Source of the DNA: Bradyrhizobium diazoefficiens
GTDB taxonomy: Bacteria > Pseudomonadota > Alphaproteobacteria > Rhizobiales > Xanthobacteraceae
Reading direction: 5' to 3'
NCBI RefSeq assembly: GCF_018131185.1
Contig: NZ_JAFCJE010000002.1
Span: 620,001-684,000 of the forward strand
DNA: 64,000 nucleotides
The notes under the pieces were generated by a model, which saw only the letters and a program-made list of their open reading frames with translations, had not been told where the DNA came from and did not search any database. Each line of letters opens with the position of its first letter. Within the stretch, counting starts at the first letter, position 1. A program made the translations under genes and the position numbers. Below, piece after piece: positions 3,071 through 9,910 of the stretch.

Positions 3071-3259
3071 ATGGGGACCATCATAGAATTTCCGGCCGGT
3101 CGCCGGGTGGGCTCGTCGGGGGATGTCGCTCCGCGCGCGGACATGGGAACGATCCTGATCCTTCCCGTCATCCGTATCGAGCGCGAGGCAGATGAAACCA
3201 GCGGCGATCGCGGGCCTGAGCAGGGCACAGCGCCGGGGCGCCGACGCCGCCGTCGCTGA
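3071..3259 (+). CDS. Small conserved-looking protein with MGTIIEFP motif
   Basis: 62 residues from an ATG preceded by GAAGAGAGC at good spacing. The N-terminus MGTIIEFPAGRR recurs in altered form as MGTILILPVIR about 24 residues later, suggesting an internal duplication. The tail is Gly/Arg-rich and ends in six arginines. It overlaps no strong alternative frame until its stop, 16 bases before the lipoprotein start. IIxFP-containing starts are seen in small alphaproteobacterial proteins of unknown role. Function unknown. Confidence 0.45.
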   Translation: MGTIIEFPAGRRVGSSGDVAPRADMGTILILPVIRIEREADETSGDRGPEQGTAPGRRRRRR

Positions 3260-3275
3260 CATCCGGTTACCTGCA

Positions 3276-4037
3276 ATGCCGGATACCATCCGCCAGCTCC
3301 GGCCCGTCCTATCGGCCGTCCTGCTCGCGCTGCTTGCTGCCACGCTCGGCGCGTGCAGCGGTGGTGATTTCGGCCGCACCCGCGCCGACATGCGCAGTGA
3401 CGACATGCATCGCTGGCTGGGCGCGGAGGTCACCTCCAGCGTCGGCCTGAATCCTTCGCAATTCCAGCTCACCGACGAAGAGCGCCAGCTGCGCGACCTC
3501 GCCTATCCCATGATCGAGCCGCCGCTGTCGCGCCCCGCTTGGAAGAGCGTGTTCGGCGACTACAAGCCGCTACCCTCGCCCTGGCGTCAGAAGATCGTGT
3601 TCGACCGAACCATGTACGGACGCACGCTGATCGACGAGCCGCACCGCTCGCATTCCTCACGTTATGCGCAGCTGATCGAGGACGTGCGCAACGACATCAC
3701 CCGTTTCGAGCCGTTCTTCGCCTCTGCGATCCGCGTCATCGATCTCGACAGGAAGCGCGACGCCAGCATGGCGCGCGTCTCCGCCCTTTCGCCGCGGGAG
3801 AAAGCCGACGCGGTCGCACGCATGCAGGAGAATTCGCTGATCGTGCAGTGGGTGCAGCAGTGCCTGGAGCAGCGCGTTTCGTCCTACCGCTGGGCGCTCG
3901 AGCGCTTGGTGATCCAGGCGCCCGACGGCATGGCGGCCGATGCCGATCGCCTGATCGGCGAGCTCGCCGCCCAGACCGCCAACCCGCCGGTCGCGGCGCA
4001 GCCGCCTTACGGCCGCGCCGTCGTCTCGAAGGGCTGA
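3276..4037 (+). CDS. Putative lipoprotein, conserved hypothetical
   Basis: 253 residues from the ATG at 3276, chosen because it gives a normal lipoprotein signal: a short basic start, a hydrophobic run (VLSAVLLALLAATL) and a lipobox L-G-A-C with the modified cysteine at about residue 27. An in-frame ATG at 3192 would put about 28 extra charged residues before the signal and is less likely. The mature part is mostly helical and charged, with no recognised domain (motifs such as DEERQLRDLAYPMIEPPL and VQWVQQCLEQRV). It is likely anchored to the outer or inner membrane facing the periplasm. Function unknown. Confidence 0.65.
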   Translation: MPDTIRQLRPVLSAVLLALLAATLGACSGGDFGRTRADMRSDDMHRWLGAEVTSSVGLNPSQFQLTDEERQLRDLAYPMIEPPLSRPAWKSVFGDYKPLPSPWRQKIVFDRTMYGRTLIDEPHRSHSSRYAQLIEDVRNDITRFEPFFASAIRVIDLDRKRDASMARVSALSPREKADAVARMQENSLIVQWVQQCLEQRVSSYRWALERLVIQAPDGMAADADRLIGELAAQTANPPVAAQPPYGRAVVSKG

Positions 4038-4246: not shown

Positions 4247-7200
4247 ATGAGCTTAGACGCCCCGCGTCCGTTCAAGAGCCGTCCGGACGCTTTCCCCCGC
4301 CATCTGCTGGCACTTGCCGTTCTGCTCGGGTCCACCGGCTCCGCAGCCGCGCTGAGCAAGGAAGGAGCGCTCGAGAATTGCCGGATGACGGCCGGCCGGC
4401 CGATCGTGCAAGCTTGCATGCGCGCCGGCGGAGGGCCGGCCGGAGGCGCCAATCTCGAAGCCTGCCGCGCCAAGGCAGCGCCTCAGGTCAGGGCCTGTGT
4501 GATGGCCGCGCTGAATGCCGCCAATGGGCGTGCCAATGTTGCGGTGGAGCTTCCCAAGGACGCGGCGCCCAAGCTCGAGTCAGGTACGGCGCTGCCGAAG
4601 GATTTCGTCGCGCCGCCGCGCAGCATCGCCGACATCACGGCGATCCTCGATGGCGACAAGCCCGACGAGAAGATGATCGCCGAGCTGAAGGCGGACGCCG
4701 ACACGGCACCGACCGGGAAGGAGTCCCGCCAGGATCTCGCGCAGCTCTATTTCGATCGCGCCAATGCGCGCGCGCAGCTCGGACGCCTCGCCGAAGCGAT
4801 GTCCGATGCCGACAAGGCCGTGGAGGTCGGGCGCGGGGCTGTCGGCCCGCAACTGCTCGGGCGGATGTTGCAGCTTCAGTCGCTTCAGCACTCTATCGCG
4901 GGTGATCCGAAGCGCGCGCTCGAGATCATGCAAAGGCTTCTCCGCGAATCGGCCAGCATGCCGGGCGCCAAGGGCTTCATATTCACCACGAACCGCGCGA
5001 TCGCGGCCGTTCTGGTCCAGATGGGCGATCTCGCGCAAGCCGAGGCCTATCTCCGCCGCAGCCAGAGCGCTATCCAGGAGGCGCGCACCAGCGGCCATCC
5101 CAATTGGCGAGCGGCCTATGCGAAGTTCGGGCAGAGCTGGGAAGGAGAGCTTGAAATCTCTCGGGCACTCGTCTTCGAGGCGCGCGGACAGTATGCCGAC
5201 GCCGAGGCAGCGTACCGCATGGCGGAGGTGCGCAAGCGCGCGAGCACGAAGGCGATCATGGCGTCCGACAATGCGCCGGCCGAGACGATTCTGCTGCAGG
5301 CGATCGACGGCACCGTCTTGAGCCAGGCGCGCATGAAGGCGAAGCAGGGCCGGCTCGCCGAGGCCGAGGTGGACGCGCGCCGTGCGCTGCTCTCGCGCCT
5401 GCAGGACACCGGCAAGTACAACTCGGTTACGCCGCGCTACGTCATGGGTTTGGCGGGCATTCTGGTCGACCAGGGCCGTTACGAAGAAGCCGAGAAGCTC
5501 GGCCGCGTCGCCCTCGATATCAACAAGACCGTCGGTGTGCCCGAGGAGGCGCAGACCACCGTGCAACTGCTGTCGCAGCTCGCCGGCATCCTGACGCTGC
5601 GGCGCCAGAATGTCGAAGCGAACGCGATGTTCGCGCGGATCGACAAGGCCGTCGCCGGCTGGGATGCGCAGCGTCGCCAGGTGTTCGAGCTCAATCCATC
5701 CCGGATCCTGTCGCTCTATGGTGCCGGGCAACTGGACGCCGGCATCGCCGCCGCCGAACAGCTCGTGAAGAAGCAGGTCGCCCGGGTCGGGGAAAACCAC
5801 TTCGACGCCGCCTCGGCGCGCGGCACGCTGGCGGTCGGATTGATGCGCGCGCGGCGCGATGCCGACGCGATCAGGGAGTTCAAGGCCGCCATTCCGGTCA
5901 TGATGGCGAGCGCCAACGAGAACGCCGACGACGAAAACACGACCGTAGTGGCCGCGCGCAGCCAGCGGCTGCAGACCATCGTCGAGAGCTATCTGCTGCT
6001 GCTCGGCAGGGCGGAAGGAGCCGGCAAGGACGTCGGTGATGAGACGTTCAGCCTCGCCGATGCCGTCCGCGGCCGCTCGGTGCAGCAGGCATTGGCAGCT
6101 TCGAGCGCGCGCGCGGCGGCCAAGGATCCCGCGCTCGCCGAGCTCGTGCGCAAGGAGCAGGATCTGACCAAGCAGGTCAACGCTCAGCTCGGCACGCTCA
6201 ACAACGTGCTTACGCTTCCGGCGGCGGAGCGCGACGAGAAAGGCGTTGCACAAATTCAGGCCTCGATCGCGGCGTTGCGCGGCCAGCGCGACAAGGCGCG
6301 CCAGGAGATCAAGCAGAAGTTTCCGATCTACGCCGATCTCGTCTCGCCCAAGCCGCCGAGCGTCGCCGAGATCCGCGCGACGCTGGCCGACGACGAGGCC
6401 ATGCTGTCGTTCTATTTCGGCCAGAACGGCAGCTTCGTCTGGGCCGTGCCGAAATCGGGGCCGGTGGCGTTCGCCGCCGTGCAAGCCAAGATCGGCGACA
6501 TCGAGAGCAAGATCCGCAAGCTGCGCGAAGCGCTCGAGCCGCAGGCCGCGATGATCTCGGACATTCCGCCGTTCGACCTCAAGCTCGGTCATGAGCTCTA
6601 TGAGCTGCTGCTCAAGCCGGTCGAGAGCGGCTGGAAGCCGGCCAAGAACCTGATCGTCGTGACCAACGGCGCACTCGGACTCCTGCCGCTGTCCCTGTTG
6701 CCGACGGCACCGGCAGAGGTGGCTGCGGACGAGGATCCCCTCTTCGTCGGCTACCGCAACGTGCCGTGGCTGGCGCGGACCCATGCCGTGTCGACGGTGC
6801 CGTCGGCGGCAGCGTTGCGCACGTTGCGGCAATTGCCGCCCGGCAAGCCGGGCCGCGGCGACCTCGTCGCGTTCGGCGATCCCTATTTCAACGCCGATCA
6901 GCACGCCGAGGCGGAAAGCAGCGGGGAGAAGATCCAGGTCGCCGATGCCGGCGGCAACACCACGCGCGGCGGGCCGCTGAAGCGGCGCAACAGTCCCAAG
7001 CTCGACGGCGTCGACAGCGCCGAGCTGGGCCTCCTGCCCAGGCTTCCCGATACCGCCGACGAGCTGAAGTCGATCGCGCTGGCCTTGCAGGCGGACCCCT
7101 CGAAGGTGCTGTTCCTCGGCAAGAGCGCGACCGAGAGCGCGGTGAAGACCATGAACCTCTCGGGCTTCAAGATCCTGGCTTTTGCCACCCACGGTCTGGT

Positions 7201-7663
7201 CCCGGGCGAGCTGAACGGATTGACGCAACCGGCGCTCGCTTTGTCGTCGCCGGTGGTGACGGGCGAGGGCGGCGACGGGCTCCTGACCATGGAGGAGATC
7301 CTCGGCCTCAAGCTGGACGCGGACTGGGTCGTCCTGTCCGCCTGCAACACCGGTGCGGGCGCGGGCGCCGGCGCCGAGGCGGCATCCGGGCTCGGCCGTG
7401 CGTTCTTCTACGCCGGCACGCGCGCGCTGCTGGTGACGAACTGGTCGGTGCATTCGCAGTCCGCGCGGCAATTGGTGACCGACCTGTTCAAGCGGCAGGC
7501 CGACGATCCCAAGCTGTCGCGCGGTGAAGCGCTGCGCCAGGCGACGATGGCCCTCGTCGATGGTCCCGGCTATCTCAACAGCGAAGGCAAGACCGAGTTT
7601 GCCTATGCCCATCCGCTGTTCTGGGCGCCTTACACCATCATCGGCGATGGCGGCTTGCGTTGA
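4247..7663 (+). CDS. Secreted TPR-CHAT domain protein (caspase-like)
   Basis: 1138 residues with a Sec-type signal peptide (hydrophobic core about 20-34, cleavage near SAA-ALS). A Cys-containing segment follows (four Cys between about 45 and 86), then a long TPR region (about 150-560; motifs such as GRLAEAEVDARRALL and GRYEEAEKLGRVALDI), a coiled-coil-like stretch (about 630-700) and a C-terminal CHAT domain (about 780-1138). The CHAT catalytic dyad is present: His982 in FATHG and Cys1033 in LSACNTG. CHAT proteins are caspase/separase-clan cysteine peptidases that cut partner proteins when TPR sensors are triggered. Export is unusual for a sensor-protease. It heads a run of four closely packed genes. 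Confidence 0.85.
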   Translation: MSLDAPRPFKSRPDAFPRHLLALAVLLGSTGSAAALSKEGALENCRMTAGRPIVQACMRAGGGPAGGANLEACRAKAAPQVRACVMAALNAANGRANVAVELPKDAAPKLESGTALPKDFVAPPRSIADITAILDGDKPDEKMIAELKADADTAPTGKESRQDLAQLYFDRANARAQLGRLAEAMSDADKAVEVGRGAVGPQLLGRMLQLQSLQHSIAGDPKRALEIMQRLLRESASMPGAKGFIFTTNRAIAAVLVQMGDLAQAEAYLRRSQSAIQEARTSGHPNWRAAYAKFGQSWEGELEISRALVFEARGQYADAEAAYRMAEVRKRASTKAIMASDNAPAETILLQAIDGTVLSQARMKAKQGRLAEAEVDARRALLSRLQDTGKYNSVTPRYVMGLAGILVDQGRYEEAEKLGRVALDINKTVGVPEEAQTTVQLLSQLAGILTLRRQNVEANAMFARIDKAVAGWDAQRRQVFELNPSRILSLYGAGQLDAGIAAAEQLVKKQVARVGENHFDAASARGTLAVGLMRARRDADAIREFKAAIPVMMASANENADDENTTVVAARSQRLQTIVESYLLLLGRAEGAGKDVGDETFSLADAVRGRSVQQALAASSARAAAKDPALAELVRKEQDLTKQVNAQLGTLNNVLTLPAAERDEKGVAQIQASIAALRGQRDKARQEIKQKFPIYADLVSPKPPSVAEIRATLADDEAMLSFYFGQNGSFVWAVPKSGPVAFAAVQAKIGDIESKIRKLREALEPQAAMISDIPPFDLKLGHELYELLLKPVESGWKPAKNLIVVTNGALGLLPLSLLPTAPAEVAADEDPLFVGYRNVPWLARTHAVSTVPSAAALRTLRQLPPGKPGRGDLVAFGDPYFNADQHAEAESSGEKIQVADAGGNTTRGGPLKRRNSPKLDGVDSAELGLLPRLPDTADELKSIALALQADPSKVLFLGKSATESAVKTMNLSGFKILAFATHGLVPGELNGLTQPALALSSPVVTGEGGDGLLTMEEILGLKLDADWVVLSACNTGAGAGAGAEAASGLGRAFFYAGTRALLVTNWSVHSQSARQLVTDLFKRQADDPKLSRGEALRQATMALVDGPGYLNSEGKTEFAYAHPLFWAPYTIIGDGGLR

Positions 7664-7689
7664 CGAACTGGGAAAGGGGTGCACGGAAA

Positions 7690-8133
7690 ATGAAGCGGAC
7701 TGTTTTGCTGGGCCTCGTGGTCGCGGGTTTGTTGTCGTCGGGACCATCGCTTGCGGTGCCATTGATCACGGAGGAGGAAGCCAAGCTGCCGCCGCCGAAA
7801 GGCGCGGTTGCCGTCGATCAGCGCGGCATCATGCGCGGCCCGAAGGTCGAGTTCGTCTCGCCGGGCGCATCGGCGAGCTCGCCCCTGCCGCTGGTATTGA
7901 AATTCCAGTCCTATGGCGGGGCGAAGATCGATCTGGAGTCCGTCAAGATGATTTTCCTGCGGACCCCGAATGTCGACTTGACCTCGCGCGTCAAGCCGTT
8001 CGTGAAGGCCGACGGCATCGACATGCAGGATGCGGAGCTGCCGCCCGGCGAATACGCGGTGCGTGTCGATATCAAGGACAGTGACGGCCGTTCGGGCACG
8101 ACCATCTTCATGCTGAAGGTCGCGCCGAAGTGA
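7690..8133 (+). CDS. Small secreted protein of the CHAT operon
   Basis: 147 residues from the ATG at 7690, which follows a GGAAAGGGG ribosome site; a TTG at 7660 overlapping the CHAT stop is an alternative. A clear signal peptide (MKRTVLLGLVVAGLL..., cleavage near LA-VP) leads into a mature domain of alternating strands (VEFVSPGAS, PLVLKFQSYGGAKIDLESVKM, GEYAVRVDIKDSDGRSGTT), which reads like an Ig/CARDB-type beta-sandwich. It is expected in the periplasm with the CHAT protein. It may be a partner or substrate, but that is guilt by association. Confidence 0.75.
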   Translation: MKRTVLLGLVVAGLLSSGPSLAVPLITEEEAKLPPPKGAVAVDQRGIMRGPKVEFVSPGASASSPLPLVLKFQSYGGAKIDLESVKMIFLRTPNVDLTSRVKPFVKADGIDMQDAELPPGEYAVRVDIKDSDGRSGTTIFMLKVAPK

Positions 8134-8327
8134 CGTGCCCCTACTGCAAGGCAGGGACCGGGGAAGGCGCGCTTGTCTGCCCGTCCTGCGGGCGCGACAT
8201 CGCCGTTCCCGCGACGCTGATCGCGGAGCGTGACGATCTCCTGCGCAAGCGACAGGAGCTGCGCGACGAGTTGAAACGGGCCAGAGACGAGGCCGAAGCC
8301 TTCATCAGGCGGAGGCATTCGCGCTAG
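8130..8327 (+). CDS. Zinc-ribbon coiled-coil small protein
   Basis: 65 residues from a GTG overlapping the preceding stop by four bases (GTGA), so translation is coupled. The N-terminus has a zinc-ribbon pair, CPYC at about 3-6 and CPSC at about 17-20, followed by a charged helix (about 29-62) likely to form a coiled coil. No signal peptide, so cytoplasmic. Double-CxxC ribbons of this type usually act as structural or recognition modules. It sits between the secreted CHAT-operon gene and a membrane zinc-ribbon gene. Confidence 0.7.
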   Translation: MTCPYCKAGTGEGALVCPSCGRDIAVPATLIAERDDLLRKRQELRDELKRARDEAEAFIRRRHSR

Positions 8328-8329
8328 CG

Positions 8330-9094
8330 ATGGAGTGCCCGTTCTGCGCCGAGACGATCAAGGACGAAGCCATCGCGTGCAAGCACTGCTCGCGCGACCT
8401 GCGCGTGGTGCGGCCGACCTTGCTCGAGATCGAGGAGATCGTCGCCGATCTGGACAAGCTCAGGCGCGATCTCGACCGGGTCAATGTCCGGCTCGAGCGG
8501 TACAAGAATCCGCTGCGCTATTTCACGACGCATGCGGTGCTCTACGTCGCGATACCGTCCCTTCTTCTGGTGATCGCGCACGTGCTCGTGACCATCACTT
8601 TCAACGCGTCTCCGATCCCGCTTCGGATTGCCTCCATCGCCATACCGCTGCTGTTCGGATTCCTGGCCTACCCGCTACACCGGGTTTCGGCCTTGACGGC
8701 CTTTCTGCTGGCGTTCTTGGCGGCGGCCGTCAGCGTGCTGTCGATGCTGACGGTCACCGGGATTCACGATCATGTCCCGATCCTGCCGCAAGCCTGGATC
8801 GAATGGCGGGAAGTGTTCGAATACGGTGCCAGCATCCTGCTCGCCTTCGTCTCGGGAAACATCTTGAGCGTCGTGGTCTTCCAGGTCCTGCCGCGCGTGC
8901 TGACACAGGGCGGCAAACCGAATGCGTTCGCCTTCCGCTCGGCGCGCCTGCTCGGACAGCACGTCGGCGAGGAACAGCTGCGGCGACGCGCCCGCTTGAT
9001 CCAGGACCTGATGCAGACCGTTGGGCCGCTGGTCGGCGTCGCCGCGACCGCGGTCGGCTCGATCTACGCGGGATTGAAGGGCTTGCTTGGATAG
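8330..9094 (+). CDS. Zinc-ribbon multi-pass membrane protein
   Basis: 254 residues starting two bases after the previous stop. It has an N-terminal zinc ribbon (CPFC at 3-6, CKHC at 17-20), a helical linker with coiled-coil character (about 28-58), four membrane helices (about 64-90, 95-118, 120-145, 165-190) and a soluble C-terminal part ending in a hydrophobic stretch (VGPLVGVAATAVGSIYAG). The ribbon is of the same style as that of the 65-residue protein just upstream, so the two may pair. As last gene of the CHAT set it could link cytoplasm and periplasm, but no activity is known. Confidence 0.75.
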   Translation: MECPFCAETIKDEAIACKHCSRDLRVVRPTLLEIEEIVADLDKLRRDLDRVNVRLERYKNPLRYFTTHAVLYVAIPSLLLVIAHVLVTITFNASPIPLRIASIAIPLLFGFLAYPLHRVSALTAFLLAFLAAAVSVLSMLTVTGIHDHVPILPQAWIEWREVFEYGASILLAFVSGNILSVVVFQVLPRVLTQGGKPNAFAFRSARLLGQHVGEEQLRRRARLIQDLMQTVGPLVGVAATAVGSIYAGLKGLLG

Positions 9095-9238
9095 CCAGCC
9101 GTCACCGCTGGCCGTCATGCACGGAAATATCGGATGCCTTGAGGCCCCCGATGCGCGCGTGAGGGCGGCCGCCGGTTGCCATCACGAGGCCGAAGGCGAT
9201 CTCGTCGCGCCTTGGCGCGTCCCACAGCGTCATCTCCG

Positions 9239-9910
9239 GCGACCTACAAGAGCCTCGCCTACCAGCCCGCCGACAGCTTCGAGATGATCTCGACGCTGGT
9301 GTACTACGCACTCGTGATTGCGGTGCGTAACGACCATCCGGCAAAATCACTGGGCGAGCTCATCACCATCGCCAAGGCAAAGCCCGGCTCGCTCAGCTTC
9401 GGATCGGTCGGTTTCGGCAGCACCCACCACCTCGCCGGCGAATTGCTCAACGCCACCGCCGGTGTCGAGATCGTGCACGTGCCGTATCGCGGCGATTCTC
9501 AATCCACCACCGCGCTGCTCGGTGGAGACGTTCCCGTCATCGTCGGCACGCCCGTGCTGCTGGCCCCGCAAATCCAGAGCGGCGCGATCCGTGGCCTGGC
9601 GGTGACCTCGCCGACGCGCACCGCGCTGCTCCCCGATGTTCCGACGGTTCAGGAAGCCGGCATCAAGGGATATGACGTGCGCACCTGGGCAGGCCTGCTG
9701 GCGCCCAAGGGCACGCCGCCCGCCATCGTCGCCGCGCTCAATGCAGCGACGCTGGACGCACTCGGAAACTCGGAAATCAAGCAGCGTCTGGAGACGGCCG
9801 TCGGCGGCGAGGTCCGCGGCAGCTCGCCCGAGGAGATGAAGCGGCTGATCGAGACCGAGATCGCCAAATGGACCGGCGTGGTCGAGCGGGCGAAGATCCC
9901 GAAGATCTGA
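9239..9910 (+). pseudogene. TctC/Bug-type solute-binding protein, N-terminus lost
   Basis: The frame from about 9239 encodes the C-terminal two thirds of a tripartite tricarboxylate transporter binding protein: YKSLAYQPADSFEMIS, then PAKSLGELITIAKAKPGSL, THHLAGELL, HVPYRGDSQS and the end KWTGVVERAKIPKI. Family members run to about 320 residues with a signal peptide and an N-terminal lobe. Roughly the first 110 residues are missing, and upstream DNA in the same frame (from 9176) is Arg-rich nonsense. The join is abrupt near 9236, consistent with a deletion. No TctA/TctB membrane genes are nearby. A re-initiated truncated protein is possible but should not bind ligand normally. Confidence 0.75.

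Follow-up and report, generated by a model that had tools for sequence, protein, structure and literature searches.

A conserved four-gene unit of Bradyrhizobium pairs a predicted exported TPR-CHAT protease with a secreted β-sandwich protein and a four-helix membrane protein

The stretch of Bradyrhizobium diazoefficiens DNA analysed here (the window: 64,000 nucleotides, positions 620,001 to 684,000 of contig NZ_JAFCJE010000002.1) carries four adjacent genes on the forward (+) strand: a TPR-CHAT protease (4247–7663), a secreted β-sandwich protein termed SEC (7690–8133), and two zinc-ribbon proteins, ZR1 (8130–8327) and ZR2 (8330–9094). Comparative sequence data give good support to the view that these genes form one conserved, indel-like genetic unit. 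Its core, SEC plus the four-helix part of ZR2, is constant across the loci compared, and these loci show exchange at two positions around it: the predicted exported protease is either CHAT or a secreted Peptidase_C14 (C14) caspase, and the putative cytosolic domain on the ZR2 membrane part is either a zinc ribbon or a TIR domain. These features would fit a modular transmembrane protease relay in which a periplasmic caspase-superfamily protease is connected with either a zinc ribbon or a TIR domain in the cytosol, a reading for which we see roughly balanced prospects. Loci are designated L### and genomes G###, with G000 being the genome of the window.

Conservation of the four-gene unit

The four open reading frames and their spacing were proposed in a preliminary description of this DNA, and the coordinates, the overlap and the short gap given there are all confirmed on the sequence. 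The CHAT and SEC genes are separated by 26 bases, the SEC stop overlaps the ZR1 start by 4 bases (GTGA, 8130–8133), and 2 bases (8328–8329) lie between ZR1 and ZR2. The same strand and order are conserved in all 68 orthologous loci that have all four genes, where the median CHAT–SEC gap is 28.5 bases; because one strand is used in 68 loci with so short a gap, the arrangement is not attributable to chance. SEC and ZR1 lie within 20 bases of each other in 64 of these loci, and ZR1 and ZR2 in 59. The neighbourhood comparison suggested in the preliminary description thus finds CHAT orthologs linked to these partners in most loci. Purifying selection acts on each of the four genes, with a ratio of non-synonymous to synonymous substitution rates (dN/dS) of about 0.1–0.3.

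The unit also behaves as a block. Beyond the main Bradyrhizobium clade, the flanking genes of the window are hardly ever found beside the unit, and the four genes are still together. In three close relatives that lack the unit (G556, G548 and G529), the gene upstream of it (3192–4037 in the window) is 92–95% identical and is followed directly by LysR and metallo-β-lactamase (MBL)-fold genes. The same LysR/MBL segment is positioned directly behind ZR2 in unit-bearing relatives (e.g. L057, L043, L060 and L102), and comparison of these flanks therefore indicates that a block of about 5 kb, containing only these four genes, is either there or missing as a whole. Within Bradyrhizobium the distribution is patchy (16 of 26 sampled genomes). 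Among the 120 genomes of the family sample, 19 have both SEC and ZR2, one has SEC only, none has ZR2 only and 100 have neither (Fisher p = 3e-21, a value that overstates independence because the genomes are related).

Proteins of the unit

By its domain and His/Cys dyad, the 1138-residue product of the first gene is a member of the CHAT family, with proteolysis predicted. The Pfam CHAT model (PF12770) matches residues 779–1134 (6581–7648) with an E-value of 1e-48 and 166.6 bits against a curated cut-off of 24, and TPR_12 matches with an E-value of 5e-11. The dyad described earlier as intact is borne out: His982 (codon 7190–7192) and Cys1033 (codon 7343–7345) are invariant in an alignment of 22 diverse orthologs, and both catalytic motifs are present in 83 of 84 full-length orthologs, the sole exception being a draft frameshift. 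The dN/dS of this gene relative to nine relatives is 0.10–0.13. Sequence searches of the PDB with the protein gave essentially TPR matches only, mostly to kinesin light chain.

Export was called from hydropathy and an AxA motif at the N-terminus. In the window protein the signal spans residues 1–35 (4247–4351), with the AxA site near residues 33–35, and a hydrophobic stretch followed by an AxA-type cleavage motif occurs in 83 of the 84 orthologs. This region is the fastest-evolving part of the protein (dN 0.11–0.16, versus about 0.02 in the CHAT domain), and its character is conserved, so that the export signal noted previously stands as a prediction. The protein is accordingly predicted to reach the periplasm. 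Its only five cysteines are Cys45, Cys57, Cys73 and Cys84, located in an N-terminal module (4355–4576), and the catalytic Cys1033. A four-cysteine module with one cysteine elsewhere is found in 58 of the 84 orthologs, and a further 19 have one more cysteine; this distribution is as would be expected of an exported protein with putative disulphides.

The four-Cys module also occurs in short or unrelated open reading frames (L093:4983-5345; G072:C153:160138-160350; G040:C18:1135475-1135642) and could be an independently mobile domain. Three further CHAT genes were located in G000 (C1:232689-233711, C3:25805-26341 and C3:30897-31682), two of them neighbours on contig 3. In G014 (L188:4288-8990), the next gene after a CHAT ortholog unaccompanied by SEC encodes an SLT_2 lytic transglycosylase.

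SEC is a 147-residue protein with an ATG start and no cysteine. The AlphaFold2 model is a β-sandwich (predicted local distance difference test score, pLDDT, 82), and in 90 of 91 orthologs an AxA-type site follows a hydrophobic stretch at the N-terminus, from which SEC is predicted to be exported; model and signal together agree with the secreted β-sandwich protein of the preliminary description. The best Foldseek matches are PKD domains and CopC, at an E-value of about 1e-3 and template-modelling scores of 0.4 (query) and 0.6 (target), and the fold is tentatively described as immunoglobulin (Ig)/PKD-like. The SEC sequence profile reaches a PKD protein only at an E-value of 0.04; Pfam gave no match above cut-off, and a PDB sequence search gave no useful match.

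ZR1 (65 residues, GTG start) is composed of a zinc ribbon and a predicted helical tail. The motif CxxC-x10-CxxC is present in 83 of 83 ZR1 sequences and in every full-length ZR2, and we assign ZR1 as a paralogue of the ZR2 N-terminus because a ZR2 profile matches ZR1 copies with E-values down to 1e-12. ZR2 itself (254 residues) is modelled by AlphaFold2 as a zinc ribbon, a long helix, helices at residues 61–91, 96–117, 121–147 and 156–191, and a helical C-terminal tail that is basic. The conserved motif and the four long hydrophobic helices of ZR2 are in line with the earlier claim of two double-CxxC zinc-ribbon proteins, one with four membrane helices. The charge pattern of ZR2 is of the N-in/C-in type, which suggests that both termini are cytosolic; the charges and the position of the TIR domain in the TIR-type relatives described below agree in placing the N-terminus there. 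Few parts of the protein are as strongly conserved as the third loop, DHVPILPQAWIEWRE. This predicted periplasmic loop (8762–8818; HDHVPILPQAWIEWRE) contains the invariant residues D147, P150, P153, W159 and E161, and its tryptophan and adjacent acidic residue are kept in the TIR-type relatives.

Foldseek gave no match to ZR2 below an E-value of 0.6, and a PDB sequence search gave no useful match; a weak hit to RPW8 (E-value 0.09) was set aside as coiled-coil noise. SEC and the membrane domain of ZR2 each define a protein family that has no Pfam match. NCBIfam and PADLOC assigned no family to any of the four window proteins, and PADLOC-DB held no meaningful defence-protein match for them.

Exchangeable protease and cytosolic domains

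Five loci found by the ZR2 search have no CHAT gene, and each has a secreted C14 gene in an adjacent or divergent position. The Pfam Peptidase_C14 E-values for L077, L097 and L098 are 1e-34 to 1e-37, and wider sampling added L193, L230, L231, L237, L241 and L242, together with L223, where C14 is paired with SEC/ZR2 in another order of the class. The C14 partners retain the GHG and DACR motifs that carry the catalytic His and Cys. The four-Cys module recurs in L077, L079 and L231, there ahead of TPR repeats and a C14 domain in place of CHAT, and the module profile matches these TPR-C14 proteins with E-values of 1e-19 to 1e-20. In L072 and L075, a CHAT protein of the Afipia subfamily accompanies SEC and ZR2 of the Bradyrhizobium type, i.e. 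the protease has been swapped. The protease near SEC is CHAT for 81 of 107 copies, C14 for 12 and neither for 14, in a Bradyrhizobium-dominated and non-independent sample.

Two of the C14 partners have a weak peptidoglycan-binding match (E-value about 1e-3), and several have Cys-rich C-termini. Tandem proteases, either two CHAT proteins of different subfamilies or two C14 proteins, are positioned upstream of a single SEC/ZR1/ZR2 set in L087:2520-9215, L096:2746-9501 and L097:5160-9170. Exported caspase-like open reading frames also lie near the distant SEC genes of L225 and L228; they match nothing in Pfam, no His/Cys pair is visible in them, and they were left out of the count.

The second exchange is seen in G118, G435 and G513, where the protein beside SEC starts with a TIR domain in place of the ZR2 zinc ribbon. 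In L186, L237, L238 and L239, this domain (Pfam TIR_2, E-value about 1e-10) is fused to the ZR2 membrane domain (profile E-values of 1e-22 to 1e-31). The gene order is CHAT–SEC–TIR-4-helix in L238 and L239, and a C14 gene is close by in L237. The TIR domains of these proteins contain a conserved Glu (RVEIETAL) at what we take to be the site of the catalytic Glu in NADase TIR domains. The PADLOC models hit by the C14 and TIR relatives are for the most part the generic caspase and ThsB TIR ones. In one locus (L185:1787-2680), a ZR2-type membrane domain seems to interrupt the TIR domain; the contig is short, its assembly is fragmented, and the arrangement could be artefactual.

A possible transmembrane relay and its alternatives

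In the relay that we propose, the protease, TPR-CHAT in the window and secreted C14 elsewhere, would be exported to the periplasm and associate there with SEC as a periplasmic subunit. The docking site for SEC would be the conserved periplasmic loop of ZR2. Both ends of ZR2 would face the cytosol, and ZR1 would pair with the ZR2 zinc ribbon on that side. The TPR repeats and the four-Cys region might sense envelope damage or an invader, and the activated protease would then cleave SEC, ZR2 or another envelope target. ZR2 would hand this event to its cytosolic domain, which could be an adaptor (zinc ribbon) or an effector or signal enzyme (TIR), and the outcome would probably be a response of the conflict or programmed-death type. 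Of this scheme, export and topology are strong predictions; what we infer is that the proteins form a complex, which way the signal runs, what triggers the protease, what it cleaves and what follows. An outside-in conflict or death role is favoured because both variable slots use bacterial immune domains (CHAT, C14 and TIR). That the unit represents an undescribed immune or death class, in which a dedicated membrane protein would link a periplasmic caspase-superfamily protease with a zinc ribbon or a TIR domain on the cytosolic side, is a tentative proposal that we hold with less than even confidence.

To our knowledge, the bacterial caspase-superfamily and TIR modules known in detail are cytosolic or located at the cytosolic face of the membrane. 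In Type IV Thoeris, the 2025 system of Rousset and colleagues, TIR signalling reportedly activates a caspase-like protease. Both parts of that system are cytosolic and are coupled through a nucleotide signal. It is the closest known system in its pairing of TIR with a caspase-superfamily protease, as in L237–L239, and differs in that the TIR domain of our loci is fused to a membrane domain, the protease is predicted to be exported and the window copy has no TIR.

Other systems resemble single parts of the unit. Craspase of type III-E CRISPR (PMC9729208) is a cytosolic, RNA-guided TPR-CHAT protein with a His/Cys dyad, and shares its repeats, CHAT domain and dyad with the window protein. It lacks counterparts of the export signal, the four-Cys module and the SEC/ZR partners, and no CRISPR effector is encoded in the unit; no Craspase chain was matched by the CHAT sequence profile in the PDB. 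Unlike bacterial gasdermin systems, the unit has no gasdermin, as none of its four proteins gave a gasdermin match in Pfam, NCBIfam or PADLOC. The Canu caspase-nuclease (PMC12799240), in which a caspase with Ig-like folds and TPRs acts on an MBL-fold pro-nuclease inside the cell, is closest in its combination of caspase-family protease, Ig-like folds and TPRs. The MBL-fold gene flanking some copies of the unit was rejected as a comparable nuclease partner, since it is also present where the unit is absent. On the features compared, the unit belongs to none of the Craspase, gasdermin, Thoeris and Canu systems. A membrane-associated precedent for CHAT plus TPR is HetF of the Anabaena divisome, which loses its function when the active site is mutated (PMC8406250); its membrane segment is internal, and SEC/ZR partners are not described for it. 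HetF makes the earlier statement that known CHAT proteins act in the cytoplasm too strong. The C14 partners belong to the alphaproteobacterial metacaspases, for which the portions consulted of a survey (PMC3501461) report N-terminal helices, possibly signal peptides, and many operons of unknown function, and do not describe the SEC/ZR1/ZR2 partner set.

No paper on a Bradyrhizobium CHAT system came up in a literature search, and no description of the SEC/ZR unit was found in a search that left subscription papers and preprints mostly outside its range. The suggestion of the preliminary description that this is a different type of module is therefore plausible, with the correction that the module is not CHAT-specific, given that C14 and TIR also fill its slots.

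Several observations weigh against the proposed relay. The AlphaFold2 model of ZR2 is of moderate quality (pLDDT 75), sampling is dominated by close Bradyrhizobium relatives, and the TIR versions come from three genomes only, all fragmented and with an estimated contamination of at least 4%. Most of the loci examined, and the window too, have an ordinary chromosomal context and are not in defence islands, with a possible OLD/AriA-like neighbour in L234 only. In addition, SEC (with ZR1 and/or ZR2) is also found without a cis protease, which suits a role in envelope proteostasis equally well. In three genera SEC is located between clpP and clpX, with ZR1 and ZR2 in L182:5209-10709, ZR2 only in L184:5383-10474 and a ZR1-like gene only in L235:5172-10066. 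Pfam confirms clpP and clpX at all three loci, and tig in L182; no clan CD protease gene was found at any of them. This position could be an ancestral location or reflect a functional link to ClpXP. SEC is also near tgt in G014, G042 and G102 (confirmed by Pfam in G014 and G042), and from these two settings it follows that SEC/ZR2 can exist apart from a cis protease.

The clpP–clpX loci are the best support for the main rival, envelope proteostasis or regulated proteolysis without an immune role, in which the exported protease would degrade or process envelope proteins that are misfolded or damaged, and ZR2/ZR1 would report or hand over to proteases of the cytosol such as ClpXP. The housekeeping surroundings of the unit in Bradyrhizobium fit this explanation as well, and zinc ribbons are common adaptor domains. 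We nevertheless consider it rather unlikely: the unit is patchily present in Bradyrhizobium, a TIR domain at the cytosolic position and a C14 enzyme at the protease position typify conflict systems, and no HtrA- or site-2-protease-type gene is part of the unit. Improbable, in our view, is an action of the protease and SEC outside the cell or on its surface as a hydrolytic or competition factor, with ZR1 and ZR2 merely co-transcribed for assembly or regulation. The predicted export signals of CHAT and SEC and the peptidoglycan-binding matches and Cys-rich C-termini among C14 partners would suit such a factor, but SEC and ZR2 are almost always found together, also in cases where the protease lies elsewhere or is missing, and the unit includes no secretion machinery. 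Least probable is that the neighbours share no pathway and are co-carried through a common promoter, since the separation of CHAT from SEC in G014 and G102 and the lack of SEC in G005 stand against block-wise presence or absence, conserved overlaps and the fact that SEC/ZR2 pair independently with C14, including in another order (L223).

Downstream of the unit, positions 9237-9238 of the window mark a deletion junction at which about 4.5 kb present in G556 and G548 is absent, and the TctC (Bug-type receptor) gene at 9176–9910 has lost part of its 5' end.

We know of no partner or purpose for the exported caspase-like proteins of rhizobia and Afipia. In the present comparison, exported CHAT and C14 proteases are accompanied by two families that Pfam does not match, SEC and the membrane domain of ZR2. 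If the immune or death reading is true, the unit would be an outside-in equivalent of the TIR-caspase and CHAT systems of the cytosol. The role of exported bacterial caspases becomes directly testable, now that partners, catalytic residues and natural strains lacking the block are identified.

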